Assembly: GCA_028284955.1 (NCBI GenBank)
Contig: JANQQS010000131.1
Location: 1-53,257, forward strand
DNA length: 53,257 nucleotides
Source of the DNA: Myxococcota bacterium
GTDB taxonomy: Bacteria; Myxococcota_A; Polyangia; Polyangiales; Houyiibacteriaceae
Reading direction: 5' to 3'
In this document: in pieces, positions 1 through 53,257 of the stretch
Layout of the letters: the number at the start of each line of letters is the position of its first letter
How positions within the stretch are numbered: the stretch's first letter is position 1
Translations under genes and position numbers: made by a program
The notes under the pieces: model-generated
The model's input: the letters and a program-made list of their open reading frames with translations, nothing else
Told to the model about the DNA's origin: nothing
The model's database searches: none

Positions 1-27
1 TTCGAGGGCATGAAACTTCATCGTAGA

Positions 28-89
28 GCTCCTGATGTTTGGGTTGAGGGTCACGCCCCGTCTTGGCCCTCAACCCGAACATCAGGAGC
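28..89. repeat. Long hairpin (23-bp stem, 16-nt loop)
   Basis: Arm 28-50 pairs with arm 67-89 with one wobble position (T at 40). The loop is 51-66. There is no U-tract on either side, so it is not a canonical intrinsic terminator. It lies in the gene-free left edge of the window, beyond the low-complexity tract and the hairpin repeat that follow the gene ending at 334. Confidence 0.7.
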
Positions 90-90
90 G

Positions 91-276
91 GATGCAGATT
101 CTGAATCTGACACCGACACGGGTGCAGACGCCGAGACCGATGCACAATCAGATGCCGAACCCGATGCCGAACCAGATTCTGCGTCCGCTTCTGCACAGGA
201 ATCGGGATCGGGATCGGCGTCTGATTCTGAATCAGCGTCGGCGTCTGTGTCAGTATCCGAGTCCACGTCAGATTCA
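91..276. repeat. Low-complexity GAnTC-rich tract
   Basis: About 185 bp built from short imperfect units such as GATTCTGAATCT, GATGCCGAACCC (immediately repeated with one change) and runs of ATCGGG. Both strands stay open and would encode Ser/Asp/Glu/Ala-rich polypeptides. That follows from the unit composition and is not evidence for a gene. No ribosome binding site or recognisable domain is present. It could be the remnant of a Ser-Asp linker coding sequence, but I see no gene to attach it to. Confidence 0.5.
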
Positions 277-336
277 GAGGGTCCGGCTCGGCTTCGGTGC
301 TCGATTCGACCCTCAGGCAAACTGATCGCTGCTCTA
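277..336 (-). repeat. Stop-codon-linked hairpin repeat, copy A
   Basis: Read on the minus strand, the element starts with the TAG stop codon of the gene ending at 334. It continues TAGAGCAG, then a TGATCA-like core and TTTGCCTGAGGGTC. The first 29 nt match the copy after 53161 at 27 positions. GAGGGTC (277-283) pairs with GACCCTC (308-314), but the loop is long (24 nt) compared with the 3-nt loops of other copies. Placement at a 3' gene end suggests a 3'-UTR or termination role; this is inference. Confidence 0.7.
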
Positions 337-1542
337 CCGCCAGCTTTGAATCGTGCCGGAAGATCCCGCCACATAGACCGTTCCATCGGTCCCCAGCGCC
401 GGCGCGGATAGCGTTCGCAGCCCGGTATCGACCGACCAAAGGTTGGTGCCCGCGGGATCGATGGCGAGGAGTCGGCCGCGTTGATTGATGGCCAGGGTCA
501 CACCCGAGGCGTCGACCGTGATTCCGCCCGGGAATGCTCCTTCCGAGTCTACCCGCCAACGAACGCCAGTACCCGGATCGACGCACAGTAGTCCATCTGC
601 AGCGGCCCCCAAACGCACCCCGCCGTCCAGTCCCACCGCCAGCCGAGTACTTCGAGAAGGTCGAATGCCGAGTTGCCATCGTGCCACCACCCGTCCACGC
701 GCGCCGGTGCCGACCAACTCGCCACCTGTCGTCACGACCAACGCGGTTCCGTCATCCATCATCGCGGGTCCGACAATCACCTCCGCGGGAGTCTGTACGC
801 GCCGCGATGAATCTCCTGAAAACGAAACAAACATCACTTCGTTGCCGCTTACGAGTGCGATACGGGAAGCGCTGCTCGCGAGTACGCTTCGCACGGCGCG
901 TGGCGAAGACACTCGAAAAATCGACCGACCATCTACCCCAAAGCGACTCACCGCGCGGTCAGCCGTCGCCAGCACCGCCGAGCCGTCGGGAAGCACAAGA
1001 GGTGAACCAAGCGGTGCGCCCGACAAATGAGTGCGGCTCAATTCCTGACCGCGAATCGAGAGCCGGACCAGTGCGTCAGGATGGACCGAGACGGCGAGCT
1101 GGCCCGCCGGAGTGATCGACGGCGGGAACGACACCGTTCCTAGTTCGCGTTCCCAAAGCAGCGCCCCGGAACTCGAAACAGCGGCCACTCCGTCAGATGT
1201 CCCGACGAAAAGTGTGCCATGTTGATCGATCGCAGGGCCCGAAAGGCGACGCGTCTTGATCCGGAGCTCCCATTGCTTCGTAGGGGCGTTTCGAGAGACT
1301 GACGCCGCCGACCGCCCGAGTCGTTTCGGTCCGACGCCTTCGGTCGCGACAGGATGAGCTGAAGACACCCCGTGGGGGACTTCCACGAACCGACCAACCC
1401 GCACCGGGCGCGCTCGCGCCCTCGATGGGGCCAACCATCCAAGCGGTGTCTCCCACTCGAAATGCCCCGCAGCAATCACGAAAAGCATTCCCGCGCATGC
1501 GAACGTCATGATGCGTACCCCAAGAGGCATCGGGGACATCAT
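334..1542 (-). CDS. Membrane-anchored PQQ/WD40-like beta-propeller protein
   Basis: A 402-residue protein with one N-terminal hydrophobic segment (about residues 10-27, signal peptide or anchor). A short Arg-rich stretch follows, then repeated propeller-type blades, for example SGPAIDQHGTLFVGTSDGV near residue 100 and LSAPALGTDGTVYVAGSSG near the C-terminus. Such propellers act extracytoplasmically as binding scaffolds; no catalytic motif is seen. Its start overlaps the stop of the upstream kinase gene by 4 bp, so the two are probably translationally coupled. It is the last gene of the three-gene operon 5428-334, and its stop codon forms the first bases of hairpin repeat A. The ligand is unknown. 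Confidence 0.85.
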   Translation of the reverse strand: MMSPMPLGVRIMTFACAGMLFVIAAGHFEWETPLGWLAPSRARARPVRVGRFVEVPHGVSSAHPVATEGVGPKRLGRSAASVSRNAPTKQWELRIKTRRLSGPAIDQHGTLFVGTSDGVAAVSSSGALLWERELGTVSFPPSITPAGQLAVSVHPDALVRLSIRGQELSRTHLSGAPLGSPLVLPDGSAVLATADRAVSRFGVDGRSIFRVSSPRAVRSVLASSASRIALVSGNEVMFVSFSGDSSRRVQTPAEVIVGPAMMDDGTALVVTTGGELVGTGARGRVVARWQLGIRPSRSTRLAVGLDGGVRLGAAADGLLCVDPGTGVRWRVDSEGAFPGGITVDASGVTLAINQRGRLLAIDPAGTNLWSVDTGLRTLSAPALGTDGTVYVAGSSGTIQSWR

Positions 1543-28653: not shown

Positions 28654-31038
28654 GTGCAACCGATAAAAGACGTGCAACCGATAAAAACAGTGGGGGTAGT
28701 CGGTGCGGGCGTCATGGGCAGTGGAATCGCTGCCCACATGGCCAACGCGGGCATTCGCGTCACGCTGCTCGACATCGTTCCCCCCGATTTACCCAACCCG
28801 GAGAGCGCGCCGCATGCACAACGCAGCCGCTTTGCTGGGGACGCGATAAAGAAAACACTAAAAAGCAAACCAGCCGCCTTTTTCCACCCCGACATGGCGA
28901 AGCTGGTTGCTACCGGCAACCTAGAGGACGACCTTGATTCGCTGAAGAACGCCGATTTGATCATCGAAGCGATCATCGAGCGCATCGACATCAAGAAGAA
29001 ACTCTTCGCGCGTCTAGAAGACACCATCAGCAGCGACACCATCGTGGCGTCCAATACCTCGGGCTTGCGCATCGCCGACATGCTCGAAGGTCGCAACGAT
29101 TCATTTCGCGAGCGATTCTTGGTCATGCATTTCTTCAATCCAGTCCGGTACATGAAGCTACTAGAATTGGTGGCCGGTCCCGACACGTCGGATCAAGTGC
29201 GAGAGCGGGTAGAAACGTTTGGGCGCGAACTGCTCGGCAAAGGCATTGTTTGGGGAAAAGACACACCCAACTTCATCGGCAATCGCATCGGCTGCCACTC
29301 CATGATGCTTACGCTCAAAGAGATGCAGCCGGCGGGCTTGAGCATCGAAGACGTCGACGCGATCACGGGCGTGCCCATGGGCCATCCGAAGAGCGCAAGC
29401 TTTCGTACGGCGGACATGGTTGGCCTCGACACCTTCGCGCACGTCGCCAGCAACTGCCACGCCGCGTTGGTCGACGACGAGGAACGCGACGTCTTCCTCG
29501 CGCCTGAATTTCTCACCAACATGGTGGACAAGAAGATTCTGGGAGACAAGACCAGAGGCGGCTTCTACAAGAAAACCAAAGACGGCATCCTCACCATCGA
29601 CCCGAGTTCGCTGGAGTACCGGCCCAAGGGCGGCGACCCCGAGCTCAAAAAAGCGATGAAAGACATCGCCAAAAAAGAAGACCCCGCAGAGCGCGTGCGC
29701 GCCCTGGTCGCCGACTCCGGCAAAGCCGGCGCATTCGCGTGGAAGCTGCTCTCGCGATCCTTGCTCTACTCTGCTCGGCGCGTGGGCGAAATTGCCGACG
29801 ATGTGGTGGCTTGCGACGATGCGATGAAGTGGGGCTACAACTGGGAGCTTGGCCCGTTCGAAATTTGGGATGCGCTCGGGTTCTCAGAAACGCTGACGCG
29901 TATGCGGCAGGACGGCCTCGACATACCGAGCTCGATCGAGCGCATGGAAAACGCCGGCGCGACATCGTTCTACCGCCCCGGCGAGGTTTTCGATCTCGCC
30001 CGTGGCGCCTACGTCGAGAAACACGAAGACCCTCGCACCGCACCGCTCGTGCTCGTACGTCAACGGACGGCGCCGGTGGTCGAAAACGCAGGCGCCAGCG
30101 CATGGGACCTCGGTGAAGGTGTGCTCGGGGTCACTTTCAAAACCAAAGCCAACAGCATCGATGCCGACGTCATTGGCGCGATCCATCAATCGGTTGACCG
30201 AGCAGAACGAGACTTCTCCGCCGTGCTTCTCTACAACGAAGGGGACCATTTTTGCGTCGGCGCAAACCTCTTCGCGATTGTGATGGCAGCCAATCAGAAG
30301 CAATGGGACCAGCTCCGCAATACCGTGCAGGGTTTTCAGGGGGCCGTGCAGCGCATGAAGTACGCCACCGTACCCGTTGTGGCGGCGCCCTACGGAATGA
30401 CCTTGGGGGGAGGCTTGGAGCTTTGTTTGGCGTCGGATGCGGTGCAGGCTTCCGCGGAAACCTACGCGGGCCTGGTCGAAGCGGGCGTAGGGGTGATTCC
30501 CGGTGGCGCAGGCAACCTCAACATGCTGTGGCGGGCGCTTGAAGGCATTCCCGACGGGGTCGAGTTCGACGTGCAAGCCGTTGTCGGACGGGTGTTTCAG
30601 AATATTGCCACCGCGAGAGTTGCGACCAGCGCGCATGAAGCGATCCGTTTCGGATATGTCCCGACCCGAGCAAGCGTTTCGTTTGATCGAGCCCGCCATC
30701 TCAGCGAAGCCAAAGCGCTCGCAGCCAGCCTCGGACGCACCGGCTATCACCCACCGGCTCCGCGGTCGTATCGCCTGCCCGGGGAAAGCGGAATCGCAAC
30801 GCTCGGCATGATGGTCGACACCATGGTGGCGGGCTCCTACGCCACAGAACACGATGCGCTCATCGCTCGCAAGCTCGCCACGGTATTGTGCGGAGGCCCA
30901 GGAGGCGCAACGAAACTGGTCACCGAAGAACACATGCTCGAACTAGAGGCAGAAGCATTCGTGAGCCTTTGCGGCGAGCCCAAGAGCCTTGAGCGAATGC
31001 AGCATATGCTGATGCACAACAAACCGCTCAGGAACTGA
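28654..31038 (+). CDS. fadN: 3-hydroxyacyl-CoA dehydrogenase / enoyl-CoA hydratase (FadN-type)
   Basis: A 794-residue multienzyme of fatty-acid beta-oxidation. The order is dehydrogenase first (NAD-binding GVVGAGVMGSGIAAHMANAG, then the C-terminal HAD domain) and hydratase last, as in Bacillus FadN and opposite to E. coli FadB. The hydratase keeps both expected acidic residues (GGGLELCLASD and GLVEAGVGVIPGG), so it should be active. GTG 28654 follows AGGAGGG (28640-28646). The first 18 bp are duplicated (residues QPIKD then QPIKT), giving a second in-frame GTG at 28672. The stop is followed directly by the hairpin array at 31045. Confidence 0.92.
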   Translation: MQPIKDVQPIKTVGVVGAGVMGSGIAAHMANAGIRVTLLDIVPPDLPNPESAPHAQRSRFAGDAIKKTLKSKPAAFFHPDMAKLVATGNLEDDLDSLKNADLIIEAIIERIDIKKKLFARLEDTISSDTIVASNTSGLRIADMLEGRNDSFRERFLVMHFFNPVRYMKLLELVAGPDTSDQVRERVETFGRELLGKGIVWGKDTPNFIGNRIGCHSMMLTLKEMQPAGLSIEDVDAITGVPMGHPKSASFRTADMVGLDTFAHVASNCHAALVDDEERDVFLAPEFLTNMVDKKILGDKTRGGFYKKTKDGILTIDPSSLEYRPKGGDPELKKAMKDIAKKEDPAERVRALVADSGKAGAFAWKLLSRSLLYSARRVGEIADDVVACDDAMKWGYNWELGPFEIWDALGFSETLTRMRQDGLDIPSSIERMENAGATSFYRPGEVFDLARGAYVEKHEDPRTAPLVLVRQRTAPVVENAGASAWDLGEGVLGVTFKTKANSIDADVIGAIHQSVDRAERDFSAVLLYNEGDHFCVGANLFAIVMAANQKQWDQLRNTVQGFQGAVQRMKYATVPVVAAPYGMTLGGGLELCLASDAVQASAETYAGLVEAGVGVIPGGAGNLNMLWRALEGIPDGVEFDVQAVVGRVFQNIATARVATSAHEAIRFGYVPTRASVSFDRARHLSEAKALAASLGRTGYHPPAPRSYRLPGESGIATLGMMVDTMVAGSYATEHDALIARKLATVLCGGPGGATKLVTEEHMLELEAEAFVSLCGEPKSLERMQHMLMHNKPLRN

Positions 31039-31044
31039 GTTTTT

Positions 31045-31147
31045 GGGAGGGGCTGGCCGCAGCCCCTCCCCCCGCGGAATACGATTCCGCGGGCCCCCCC
31101 TCCCGCCGCCGGCCGCTCCGCGGCCGCCCCATCGCTTTGCGACGGGG
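31045..31147. repeat. Array unit 1: four consecutive hairpins
   Basis: Stems: 31045-31054 with 31061-31070 (10 bp, loop GGCCGC); 31071-31080 with 31084-31093 (10 bp, loop ACG); 31111-31116 with 31120-31125; 31127-31135 with 31139-31147 (one internal mismatch). A T-run precedes rather than follows the first stem on the plus strand, so it is not a standard intrinsic terminator for fadN. Confidence 0.75.
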
Positions 31148-31233
31148 CCCCGGTTACGTTGGACTTCAGCGTTGGAACAAGACTGGTGGACAACAACGAC
31201 ACCTCGCCACCCGCAATTCGACCCCACACCACC

Positions 31234-31382
31234 AGGTCACGTGCTTCCTGGAGGGGGAGCTTGGGTGGCTGTTGTTGTTCGGAGGGTTTGGTGCAAACCC
31301 TCCCCCGTGCGGGTACGACCCGCTCGGGTCCCCCTCCCGACTCCGGCCGCTTGCGCGCCCGCCCCACCGCGAAGCGGCGGGG
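31234..31382. repeat. Array unit 2: conserved block plus hairpins
   Basis: Begins with AGGTCACGTGCTTCCTGG and a G-rich block. It continues with stem 31281-31290/31294-31303 (10 bp, loop GTG), stem 31309-31314/31318-31323 (loop ACG) and stem 31362-31370/31374-31382. The last stem corresponds to the fourth stem of unit 1, with a T-A pair replaced by C-G, a compensatory change. Confidence 0.72.
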
Positions 31383-31477
31383 CCCCGGTCGCGTTGGGCT
31401 TCATCGTTTAGGACAAGACTGCGTGCAGGCGACGACAACATCTCGAACCATCTCCCGCAGTTTTCCCTAACGAAACC

Positions 31478-31558
31478 AGGTTACGTGCTTCCTGGCGGGG
31501 GAGCTTGGGTGAATCGCTGGGATCGTATCCCAGCGAGAGGGTCTGGGTGCCAGACCCT
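31478..31558. repeat. Array unit 3: conserved block plus double hairpin (copy C)
   Basis: AGGTTACGTGCTTCCTGG and a G-rich block lead to a 10-bp stem 31514-31523/31527-31536 (loop CGT) and a 9-bp stem 31538-31546/31550-31558 (loop GTG). It lacks the AGAGCA tail of copies A, D and E. Confidence 0.78.
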
Positions 31559-31612
31559 AGACAACAGAGCGGCGAGGCCCCAGCAGTTCAACCTCCCACG
31601 TAACCAGGTCAC

Positions 31613-31708
31613 GTGCCTCCTGGCGGGGGAGTTTGGGTGAATCGGCGGGGTCGTACCCCGACGAGAGGGTCTGGGTGCCAGACCCTCAGGCAAACTGATC
31701 AGTGCTCT
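31613..31708 (-). repeat. Array unit 4: full double-hairpin element (copy D)
   Basis: Read on the minus strand it is AGAGCA, a palindromic ACTGATCAGT core (31694-31703), TTTGCCT, stem 1 (31665-31674/31678-31687, 10 bp, loop CAC), stem 2 (31642-31651/31655-31664, loop ACG) and a C-rich tail ending GGAGGCAC. It aligns over 96 nt with copy E (53162-53257) with six differences, four of them at two paired positions of stem 2. Confidence 0.82.
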
Positions 31709-31774
31709 TGAGCAAAGCTTGCTTGCGTTGATCGTAAACTCGAGTCGCGTACCATGGAGCAGTGGAATTTTGGT

Positions 31775-31881
31775 CTGAGCTTGAGCGCCCCGGCAGCGCA
31801 GACCGGATGACGCACGAATAGTGCTTCGTCCGGGCGAGCAGGGGAGGTAAGCCAAGCTCAGGGCAAAAGGCCGCTGCTCTA
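31775..31881 (-). other. Branched structured element following the RHH gene stop (copy F)
   Basis: Closing stem CTGAGCTTG (31775-31783) with CAAGCTCAG (31853-31861), 9 bp perfect. Inside is a 13-bp stem 31803-31815/31821-31833 (one mismatch, one G-U) with loop GAATA, plus a possible GCGC/GCGC stem (31785-31799). On the minus strand it begins TAGAGCAG at 31881, one nucleotide after the RHH stop codon, then TTTTGCCCTGAG as in the other copies. It is probably a 3'-UTR structure of the RHH mRNA; ncRNA is an alternative. Confidence 0.55.
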
Positions 31882-31882
31882 G

Positions 31883-32191
31883 CTAGTAAGTTCTGGGCAG
31901 CTTGGACACATCCACCTGATCCAACGCGAATCGGATGAGGCCGCTGCGGCTTACTCGGCGGTGGCCCGATGCTTTGAGCGACGCGACTTTTTCGTCGAGC
32001 TTCTGCAGATCTTCTTTGTACAAAGAAATGCAGATGACTTCGTAGTGGTCTGGCTTCGGTTTGGTGTTTTTCGGTTTGGCGGGACGCGTTTCTTGAGTCG
32101 GCGGAACAAAGAATGTGTCGCGGAGCACATCCCGCACCTCGTCTTCAGAGATGAGGTCGGAAGTCAGCGGTGTGCCTTTGTGGTTCGCCAT
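31883..32191 (-). CDS. Ribbon-helix-helix (CopG/ParG-like) DNA-binding protein
   Basis: A 102-residue protein with a flexible charged N-terminal half (residues 1-48) and a C-terminal RHH fold: strand YEVICISLY, helix EDLQKLDEKVASLKAS, and HRRVSRSGLIRFAL. It starts 3 bp after the stop of the ParA gene. A ParA followed by a small RHH protein with a mobile N-terminus is the arrangement of ParF/ParG-type partition modules. Inferred to bind a centromere-like site and stimulate the ATPase. The stop codon is followed by the structured element 31775-31881. Confidence 0.78.
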   Translation of the reverse strand: MANHKGTPLTSDLISEDEVRDVLRDTFFVPPTQETRPAKPKNTKPKPDHYEVICISLYKEDLQKLDEKVASLKASGHRRVSRSGLIRFALDQVDVSKLPRTY

Positions 32192-38685: not shown

Positions 38686-38850
38686 CTAGTGCTTAGTCCC
38701 AACTGATTTGAGCGATGCTCGCGCCGGATTCGGCGACAGCGGCAAGGCGGGAGGAGGAAGAATAGCCGAAACTATTTTGACGACGAGCAACGCAGCCGGT
38801 GGTGGCGAAGACAAGCGAGGACGATCAAAGCAGTTGAGACTAAGCACTAG
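38686..38850. repeat. 165-bp element with 20-bp terminal inverted repeats between parC and parE
   Basis: CTAGTGCTTAGTCCCAACTG (38686-38705) is the reverse complement of 38831-38850 with one mismatch. The outer ends contain the parC stop codon and touch the parE ATG. The internal ~125 bp is Gly/Arg-codon-like, GC-rich and without a supported gene. It could be a MITE-like insertion or an mRNA stem-loop controlling parE translation. No clear target-site duplication was seen. Confidence 0.75.
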
Positions 38851-41216
38851 TGCTCTTCCGGGTCGGGAAATTCTGGCACGGTCGGTAGCTCAACCACCAC
38901 GCGGTCGATCCCGCCTCGTTTCACGAGCGCAAAACCTTTTCCGCCCCGAGAGACGGTTTCGTATTTTCGGGTGGTGATGCGATATTCGGTGCCGCTGCTT
39001 CTCGAGACGACGAACGCGCTGTCATCGTCCACCAGAAGCTTCGCGCCCACCAGCGCGTCAGTCGGCGCGAGCTTGATCAACATCACGCCTTTGCCCGGCC
39101 CCGCGAGCACCGAAACGTCTTCTGCAGGGCAGAGCAGTGCGCGTCCCTGTCTGGTCGCGCAGGCTACCACCTCGCCGTCTTCCACCCACTCCACGTACAC
39201 CACCTCGTCGTTGTTTCCGACACGACAAAATCGCCGCCCGCTACGGCTGGTGGGTTCTCGATGATTGGTGAGCGAAAATCTCAAACACATGCCTTTTCGC
39301 GTCACCGCAAGAGCCAGCGGTGGCTCGGGCTCCGCGGCATCTTCAGTCGGCTCCGGAACCTCCATGAAGCGCGGATCAAAACTCATGACAGAGACAACGC
39401 GTTCTCCGTCCTTCATTTTCAGCAATGTCTGCAGCGGTGTGCCATGACCGCTGGTTGCCGCGATGTCGACGAAGCGGAGCACGTAGCACACGCCCTGGGA
39501 CGAAAAGAGCGCCAGAGAGCTCCGCGTGGATCCCGCGACAACCGCCATCACCCGATCGCCCTCACGCACGCGCGTCGTACCCACGTCTTTGACGCGCTGT
39601 TGCCGCTTGATCCATCCCTGCTGCGTGACCACCACCATGGCGTCTTCGTCTACAATGAAGGCGTTCGCATCGAACTGTGGTTCGTCGAGCCGCGTCACGA
39701 CTCGGGTGCGACGAGGGCTGGGGTAGGCCTCTGCGAGCTCGTGCAGCTCGGCGCGAATCAGTTTCCATCGCGCGGCTTTGCTCTTGAGCAGTTTTTCGAT
39801 TCGGCGGGCGTCTTTTTTCTTGGCCTCGAGCTCTTCTCGGAGCACCAAGATCTGCAGCTTGGCCAAACGATAAAGCTTGAGCTCCAAAATGGCGTCGACT
39901 TGGTCTTCATCCAGTTTGAAACGCTTGATGATCTTCTGCGCCGCGTCCGATTTCCCTTCCGACCGGCGAATGATGCGAATGGTTTCGTCGAGCGCGTCGA
40001 AAATCGTGACGAAGCCTTCGAGAATATGAATGCGATCGCGCAGTTTCTGGAGGTCGAAGGCAAGCCGTTTTTCGACCACCTCCATGCGAAAATCGAGAAA
40101 ATGACGGAGCACCGCGGACAACCCCAGCCGCTCTGGCGCTGCCACGTCGGGGGAGTCGGTGGGCACCAGGCACGTGAGGTTGACCGATACGCTGGTTTGC
40201 AGCGGCGTATGTTTGAAGAGGTAGGCCGCGATTAGCTGGGGGTCTGAGCCGCGTTTCACCTCGCACACCACGCGACATTCTTCTGCGCTTTCATCTCGCA
40301 CATCCACCAGCGCAGGCATCTTGCGCTGAATGATCACTTCCGCGATTTTCTCCACCAAAGCGCGTCGTTCCACGCCGTAGGGGATCGACTGAATCACGAA
40401 GAGATCGTGGCTGCCCGCGTTCTCCGACGTCCATTCGCCCCGCAGCTTGAGCGACCCCTGGCCGTTTTCATACGCCGCCACCAAGTCTGATTTTGAGCTC
40501 ACGAGCTGGCCCCCGGTGGGAAAATCTGGCCCCTTGATGCTGCGCAGAAGCTGCCGCAGGCTGATGTTTGGCTCGTCGATCATGGCGATCGCGCCGCGCA
40601 CCACTTCACCCATATTGTGCGGGGGAATCGACGTCGCCATGCCCACCGCGATGCCCTGCGAACCGTTGACGAGCATGGCGGGAAACTGCGCCGGCAGCAC
40701 CACGGGTTCGAAGCGTGTGCCGTCGTAGTTGGGACGGAAATGAACCGTTTTCTTCCCGAGCTCTTCGAGCAGAACGTCGGCAAGCTGCGTCAGTCGCGCT
40801 TCGGTGTAGCGCATCGCGGCCGGAGAATCTCCGTCGGGCGAACCGAAGTTGCCGCGCCCGTCCACCAGCGGCATGCGCATCACAAAATCCTGCGCCATTC
40901 GAGCCAGCGCGTCGTAGATCGCCACATCGCCATGGGGATGAAACTTACCCATCACGTCGCCCACGATCGCCGCTGATTTGCGGTACCGCGCATCGCTACG
41001 AAGCCGCAACTCGTTGAACATCGTATACAAGATCCGCCGCTGCACTGGCTTCAGCCCGTCGCGTACATCGGGAAGCGCACGAGCTGTGATCACGCTCAGC
41101 GCGTAGTTCAAATAACGTCGCTGGGTTTCATCAGCCAGCGAAGCGTCGGTAAACGAGTGCATGGGCAGCGCGGTCTGTGCCTGCTTGCCCTTCCCTTTTC
41201 GCTTTCGCGCCAACGA
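38847..41216 (-). CDS. parC: DNA topoisomerase IV subunit A
   Basis: About 789 residues. Breakage-reunion domain with [37 protein letters not shown], and the active-site Tyr in MRYTEARL. A coiled region and a C-terminal beta-pinwheel follow. Only a weak GyrA-box-like segment (SRGGKG) is seen, near the C-terminus, which with the parE neighbour supports ParC. TTG 41216 is proposed as start because GGAGG (41223-41227) precedes it by 6 nt, giving [11 protein letters not shown]. In-frame ATGs at 41249 and 41162 are alternatives. Position 80-equivalent (E. coli ParC Ser80) reads Val. Confidence 0.92.
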
Positions 41217-41296
41217 CGTCCTCCACGGCTTATGCGCCGCGATTCGCATAGCAGCCGCCGAGGTCGAGCCGCAAATTTTCGTATTCGAAGGAGGAT

Positions 41297-52806: not shown

Positions 52807-53163
52807 ATGCCGGTGCCTTTGCAAATCACGTTGAAGTCCATTCCACACTCGGATGCGCTTGAGGAGGCCATCCACGCAAAAGCAGCCAAGCTCGAGCGCT
52901 ACCGGAGTCAAATCACCCACTGTCACGTAACCATCGAGTCGCCGCATCGACACGGCACCAAAGGATCGCTCTACCACGTCCACATCGACGTCTGCACACC
53001 CGGCGGCGAGCTCGTCGTGAGCCGCGACCCAGGCCGCAACCACGCCCACGAAAACGTCTACGTTGCTTTGCGCGACGCGTTCAACGCGGTGCGCCGACAA
53101 CTGGAAACGCATGTCGAACGACGACGTCCGCGGAGTCAGCCGCCCCAAGCCATCGCTTACTAG
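52807..53163 (+). CDS. hpf: Ribosome hibernation promoting factor / sigma-54 modulation protein
   Basis: A 118-residue protein of the HPF/YfiA family, binding the 30S decoding region to inactivate ribosomes in slow growth. Family features: PLQITLKSIPHSDALEEAI, helix with KAAKLERYRSQITHCHV, and HENVYVALRDAFNAVRRQLE. The short form without the C-terminal dimerisation domain of long HPF. The TAG stop is also the first three bases of hairpin repeat E. Confidence 0.93.
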   Translation: MPVPLQITLKSIPHSDALEEAIHAKAAKLERYRSQITHCHVTIESPHRHGTKGSLYHVHIDVCTPGGELVVSRDPGRNHAHENVYVALRDAFNAVRRQLETHVERRRPRSQPPQAIAY

Positions 53164-53257
53164 AGCAGTGATCAGTTTACCTGAGGGTCTGGCACCCAGA
53201 CCCTCTCGCCGGGATACGATCCCGTCGATTCACCCAAACTCCCCCGCCAGGAGGCAC
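53162..53257 (+). repeat. Stop-codon-linked double-hairpin repeat, copy E (truncated by window end)
   Basis: Starts in the hpf stop codon: TAGAGCAG, TGATCAGTTTACCTGAG. Stem 1 is 53183-53192/53196-53205 (10 bp, loop CAC); stem 2 is 53206-53215/53219-53228 (loop ACG, one mismatch). A C-rich tail follows to GGAGGCAC at the window end. Same order and strand sense as copy D. The continuation beyond 53257 is not visible and may be another array. Confidence 0.82.

Follow-up and report, generated by a model that had tools for sequence, protein, structure and literature searches.

The window analysed here is an entire contig of 53,257 nt, belonging to a 6.07 Mb Myxococcota MAG in 223 contigs. Near one edge it carries hpf, whose stop codon also opens a structured sequence that runs off the contig, and ends of the same kind lie behind two further genes and inside a repeat array (Table 1). 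These four copies, first noticed in a preliminary description of the sequence, all hold, and both their copy number and their placement relative to genes are far beyond chance. The ORF coordinates confirm that the TAG at hpf (53161) and at the propeller gene (336) is the stop codon itself. Behind the RHH-like gene, which has no Pfam match at E 0.001, a single C separates the stop from the TAGAGCAG that begins at 31881, so that this left end lies four bases from the T of the stop. The copy that had been placed inside the array, copy D, is indeed part of a composite, in which the right end of the neighbouring element, TTGAGCAAAG, comes before it. The older part of this array (31043-31455) consists of units of 235 nt that contain long GC-rich hairpins; it begins directly after the TGA stop (31036-31038) of a 3HCDH gene.

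Table 1. Genes and repeat elements discussed in the text, with their positions in the window.
Feature	Position	Strand	Description
PQQ/beta-propeller gene	334..1530	-	stop TAG 336-334 is the element's own TAG
F1-type left end with divergent palindromic GAXTCX-repeat body	1..336	-	reaches contig edge; 336 down to 308 conserved
F1 copy D	31485..31708	-	left end 31708, then two ~128 nt tandem units; older array units to about 31043
F2 composite right arm	31709..31755	-	ends F1R-type (GATCAACGCAAGCAAGCTTTGCTCA); abuts copy D
F2 core, ~126 bp palindrome	31756..31881	-	ends TAGAGCAGCGGCC... and ...CCACTGCTCC; left-end TAG 31881-31879
RHH-like gene	31883..32191	-	stop TAG 31885-31883
Second, sequence-unrelated inverted-repeat element	38686..38850	-	CTAG-TGCTTAGTCTCAACTG...CAGTTGGGACTAAGCA-CTAG
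hpf (Ribosomal_S30AE, PF02482), 118 aa	52807..53163	+	stop TAG 53161-53163 doubles as the element's first three bases
F1 element, left end	53161..53257	+	TAGAGCAGTGATCAGTTTACCT, hairpin GAGGGTCTGG-CAC-CCAGACCCTC at 53183-53205, second hairpin, GATTCACCC...; contig stops within element

Across the whole genome, a pattern search with TAGAGCAGTG returned 153 sites, against 8 for the reversed control pattern. BLAST matches fall into two separate families, F1 (hpf-type, 46 matches) and F2 (RHH-type, 47 matches), and the motif TTTRCC(C)TGAG followed by a stem, as first described, is correct in both. Many copies lie at contig ends, which indicates that the repeats break the assembly. The piece found 3' of hpf is one of well over 100 ends of small, gene-less and probably mobile repeats.

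The outer ends of both families are terminal inverted repeats of 7-9 bp (TAGAGCAGYG...CRCTGCTCTA), that is, TAGAGCAG...CTGCTCTA. F1 and F2 share only these first ~8 bases and a loose TTTTGCC..TGA motif (F1, AGAGCAGTGATCAGTTTRCCTGAGGG; F2, AGAGCAGYGGCCTTTTGSCCTGA). In F1 the order is TAGAGCAGTGATCAGTTTRCCT, the hairpin GAGGGTCTGG-CAC-CCAGACCCTC, a second hairpin, GATTCACCCAAACTCCCCCGCCAGGAGGCACGTGAC... and then GATTTCGATCAACGCAAGCAGGCACTGCTCTA. A compact copy measures ~171 bp (for example C120:10425-10596), and in long copies, such as copy D, the middle is a tandem array. The F2 core is a near-perfect palindrome, TAGAGCAGYGGCCTTTTGSCCTGA...TCAGRCCAAAATTCCACTGCTCTA, and most copies continue beyond it into a 46 bp arm ending in a GATCACTGCTCT-like sequence. 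Copies nest, abut (CTGCTC-TA-GAGCAG) and combine as modules, and arrays also occur, with contigs breaking in them. Column composition gives a sharp left edge: the upstream columns are random, position -1 is C in 67-76%, then come T (92-98%) and A (98-100%), and from there on the columns are conserved. CTAG is thus found at most left ends, while a minority have G before the TAG, and both GTAG and TTAG occur. Right ends are less regular; those of F2 begin with TAGAGCAG in only about a third of copies, and those of F1 also carry TA. Predicted RNA folding is stable in both families (z = -3.5 for F1, whose hairpin lies 19 nt after the stop TAG, and z = -5.7 for F2 with its long palindrome). A third type of body is found on the same ends and consists of long degenerate GAXTCX repeats, coding-like for Asp/Ser, with an 80 bp inverted repeat at 1-308 of the window; bodies of this type also occur at C12:28664, C22:75034, C4:10477 and C29:54908. 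At C101:25432 (-) only TAGAGCAGTGATCA, which corresponds to bases 1-14 of the F1 left end, stands between two convergent genes, with no element body, and is possibly the remnant of an element.

The placement of these ends relative to genes was scored on a set picked by pattern alone, namely the first 100 TAGAGCAGTG sites listed in the whole-genome search, blind to the type of end. In this set the TAG of the left end is exactly an in-frame stop codon in 23 of 45 cases, and lies 1-14 nt after a stop in 10 more. Right ends do so in 1/19 (exact) and 2/19 (near), one of the sites scored as a right end being a left-end variant. The difference between left and right ends at stops is significant (p = 3e-5), as is the orientation (binomial p = 1e-7), although nested copies are not fully independent in these statistics. 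The same picture comes from a 1 Mb sample, which is more biased as it was partly drawn with left-end queries, and in which 761 genes were predicted by a simple home-made codon-Markov finder calibrated only by eye on the window. There, the T of TAGAGC falls exactly at an in-frame stop in 67 genes (about 60 left ends, 2 right ends, the rest weak or unassigned), and an element end follows the stop by 1-14 nt in another 35 (31 left, 3 right). At exact overlaps the stops are 65 TAG, 2 TAA and no TGA; stops 1-25 nt before an element are 27 TAG, 6 TAA and 4 TGA, and those of element-free genes 262, 100 and 238, respectively. There is also a preference beyond the stop itself, with C at -1 in 70% vs 41% and C at -2 in 6% vs 23%. 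Element-bearing genes belong more often to convergent pairs (35:20 vs 177:384, p = 4e-6), the median gap of such pairs being 343 nt with an element and 49 nt without. The enrichment directly after stop codons on which the preliminary description made its proposal depend is therefore present genome-wide. TAG is the commonest stop codon of this 60% GC genome (about 44-50%; 44% in element-free genes), and its share ranges from 12 to 39% in small samples of five relatives (G001, G002, G005, G008 and G015).

The genes beside exact or near copies are unrelated to each other, as had been noted within the window, and include hpf, the PQQ propeller gene, purF, dnaJ and a sigma-factor-like gene, among others, while the copies themselves are 90-100% identical. 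PurF at C104, an exact overlap, extends 15 residues beyond the aligned region, against 16 in Bacillus PurF, which means that the element sits on the native stop and that the protein is neither truncated nor extended. The length of Hpf is near that of other short Hpf proteins, and there the native-stop argument is only approximate. A read-through or shifted stop was seen about once (C177, d = +8), whereas random insertion at 3' ends predicts it for two thirds of in-gene TAs.

The window also contains a second element with the same kind of placement, located between gyrB and the gene at 38847-41249 (-). It has 29 bp arms, 90% identical, and ends unrelated to those of F1 and F2. Its left CTAG contains the stop codon of the gene at 38847-41249, its right CTAG stands directly before the gyrB ATG (38685), and its removal gives CAC-TAG-ATG-GCC between the two genes. 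The CTAG on both sides is suggestive of a target-site duplication, and partial copies of the element's end were seen in the sample at C5:28207 and C115:45872. A second family with different ends and the same CTAG/stop placement counts for insertion over an inherited signal.

In related genomes the leader is missing. AGAGCAG leaders were found in none of 58 relatives and the exact F1 leader in no other GTDB r220 genome. F1 matches occur in two of the 58 (G008 and G015, of one genus), and only from the hairpin onwards, so the core of the hairpin predates the AGAGCAG leader. There it forms a dispersed repeat, AGGGTCTGGCACCCAGACCCTCTC-N19-GATTCACCC...CTCCCCCGCC, found beside stops in some cases and in spacers or between genes in others, and the core hairpin without leader is also present in Myxococcales bacterium UBA1660 and Deltaproteobacteria bacterium HCUG1432-5. 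At one locus of a relative (L166), a short stretch from the start of the next gene is duplicated beside the core. No F2 was found in G008 and G015 by a search that had no positive control. The Hpf orthologues of the relatives are too divergent to serve as empty sites, and are often fused to a second domain. Literature searches with the core hairpin sequence returned only unrelated primer matches.

With a probability of roughly 70%, we read these repeats as MITE-like, non-autonomous elements whose target is the TA of a (C)TAG stop codon, where TA plus the first G of the element restores TAG. Like MITEs, for which no ORF is needed, they are short, non-coding, multi-copy and bounded by terminal inverted repeats. 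The model proposes that a transposase acting in trans would insert the element at the TA of (C)TAG by cut-and-paste, with duplication of the TA. Landing in a TAG or TAA stop would recreate TAG, so that the gene is unharmed and the insertion survives, and insertions inside genes would usually be purged, leaving those at stops and in spacers. TA plus a leading G would rebuild TAG whichever end faces the gene, provided that this end starts with G. About two thirds of F2 right ends lack this G, so a backward F2 would often destroy the stop, which helps to explain the orientation of F2; F1 right ends mostly start with G, so that the F1 bias needs either selection on the 3'-UTR or insertion that senses polarity. 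Insertion at the TA of a palindromic CTAG does not predict the bias towards left ends, and one of these two, selection on the 3'-UTR that the element supplies or polarity-sensing insertion, is its likeliest cause. That the element itself senses gene polarity, a fixed end being delivered to stop codons, for example by coupling to the termination of transcription or translation, and not sorted by selection, seems quite unlikely.

If such an element were excised, three bases with a TA on either side would remain as a scar (TA-GNC-TA), of the form TAGNCTAG. TAG-NN-TAGAGC was counted 33 times, NN being most often AC, TC, TG or GC, and the counts for other spacings are 5-10. Spacers reading TAGAC, TAGTC, TAGGC or TAGTG separate the stop from some elements, and chains of TAG units exist, such as CTAGACTAGTCTAGGCTAG and CTCTAGACTAGTCTAGGCTAGAGCAG; the scar model would account for both. 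We infer that the TAG-NN-TAG spacers are TA-GNC-TA excision footprints. It counts against this reading that the scars follow G-N-S and are not exact terminal triplets.

It could be argued that the element is an ordinary CTAG- or TA-targeting MITE without any special targeting, and that the stop pattern is a by-product of the CTAG sites that survive and of purging within genes. This is a tentative alternative of some weight, since CTAG sites are few (1,660 oriented ones in about 1 Mb, 115 of them stops), rare in genes and common as C-TAG stops, TAG is the commonest stop even where no element is present, and insertion at TA plus G always restores TAG. It was weighed against a null of random oriented non-coding CTAG sites, each palindromic site being counted once per strand because orientation is part of the question. 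This null gives 115/695 exact (16.5%) and 22/695 near (~3%), whereas 51% and 22% are observed (Fisher p = 3e-7 for exact, 1e-13 for exact plus near). A by-product also predicts left and right ends at stops in equal numbers, and the observed ratio is about 60:2.

The preliminary description had left two readings side by side, preferential insertion at stop codons and a conserved 3'-UTR signal. The first is the better supported, by the terminal inverted repeats, the sharp TA edges, the 90-100% identical copies beside unrelated genes, the nesting, the partner family of different sequence with the same placement and the footprint-like TAG-NN-TAG spacers. The second is unsupported as the origin of the pattern, because the two families are unrelated in sequence, there is no U-tract terminator and a search of 58 relatives did not find the AGAGCAG leader. 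A broader form of it would make the element a functional 3'-UTR module, in mRNA 3'-end protection, attenuation or termination, of which only hairpin-bearing left ends beside stops survive. The strong orientation bias, the stable F1 hairpins and F2 palindrome and the enrichment between convergent genes all fit such a module, but the nesting, the abutting copies and the expansion of arrays look parasitic, and together with the points just given they make it unlikely. A retained 3'-UTR role may still apply to the one-sided orientation, which insertion alone leaves unexplained.

Transposition of the REP/RAYT type, in which a single-stranded HUH mechanism acts 3' of a (C/G)TAG tetranucleotide, would give the fixed orientation for free. 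The elements are like REP/REPIN sequences in being high-copy extragenic palindromes near gene ends with TAG next to the palindrome. The orientation relative to TAG is fixed, the subterminal hairpin lies 19 nt from it, REPs have a GTAG head (PMC2817692) and the genome holds a single Y1_Tnp (RAYT-like, 302 aa) gene (C158:16674-16928). However, no TAGAGCAG copy was found around this gene, whereas RAYT genes are reported to have flanking REPs in every case (PMC2817692). The head is not GT(A/G)G (C at -1 in 70%), matched inverted repeats stand at both outer ends, with TA also at F1 right ends, and footprint-like scars are unexpected from precise HUH excision, all of which makes this explanation very improbable. 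Three further identities were discarded: integron attC-like cassette ends, by the core-gene neighbours (hpf, purF, dnaJ) and the inverted-repeat ends; an intrinsic terminator, as no T tract follows the stem and neither a U-tract nor a terminator was called at 53161-53257; and a known RNA family, as Rfam gave no match above gathering score within the window.

No IS630-type (PF13358), IS4/IS5-type (PF01609) or DDE_Tnp_1_2 (PF13586) transposase was found in the assembly, in searches whose positive controls matched, and this lack of the transposase expected of a TA-duplicating element counts against the insertion reading. As the MAG comes from short reads and is fragmented at repeats, a multi-copy IS may have dropped out of it. 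About a dozen sites (C156 and 11 others, such as C120:10615-10714) carry an IS110/IS1111-type element (483 aa transposase, PF01548 + PF02371) inserted after AGGGTCT, in the first arm of the F1 hairpin or of a solo hairpin, which suggests a hairpin-targeting IS. The transposase at C156 was rejected as the mobiliser, its own element being inserted in the hairpin arm as a passenger.

Among known systems, bacterial MITEs mostly have TA termini (PMC5896051). Those flanked by TA (Correia, RUP, ERIC and Coxiella QMITE1/2) resemble the present elements in being intergenic, ORF-less sequences of 100-200 bp with terminal inverted repeats and strong secondary structure. Coxiella QMITE2 resides mainly in 3' UTRs and serves IS1111 as an insertion hot-spot (PMC5896051), a parallel to the IS110/IS1111-type element in the hairpin arm. 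BOX elements (boxA-boxB(n)-boxC) are modular, form nested clusters and are enriched between convergent genes (PMC3049150). The pneumococcal BOX has the same plan of a fixed left end, variable tandem internal units and a fixed right end, but there is no sequence relation, and BOX is not described as starting on stop codons. By analogy, then, the elements appear to work like a TA-type MITE with BOX-like modularity and a QMITE2-like parasitism by an IS1111-type element. IS870, a member of the IS5 family, offers a further comparison. It is reported to need a 5'-CTAG-3' target and to acquire a stop codon at its junction with that target (Fournier et al. 1993, as cited in PMC6471742). CTAG at most left ends is reminiscent of this, but GTAG and TTAG also occur here, IS870 creates the stop of its own ORF while the stop restored here is that of the host gene, and an IS4/IS5-type transposase is absent from this assembly. 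What sets the present elements apart from TA-flanked MITEs is the exact overlap with the stop in half of the copies and the fixed end towards the gene; the literature searched, which covered few subscription journals, yielded no description of a repeat family whose copies begin at host stop codons in a single orientation.

If true, landing on the TA of a stop codon and rebuilding TAG would offer the element as many as a few thousand targets per genome, one at each suitable gene, at almost no cost. This could explain how short repeats become so numerous in a compact genome and how a genomic parasite can settle on a gene without breaking it, each host gene that is hit gaining a structured 3' end that is new to it. 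Why the orientation is fixed is a testable puzzle, as it needs either insertion that senses polarity or strong selection on the 3'-UTR. If the TAG-NN-TAG scars are confirmed, they would be a record of earlier insertions at genes that no longer carry an element.
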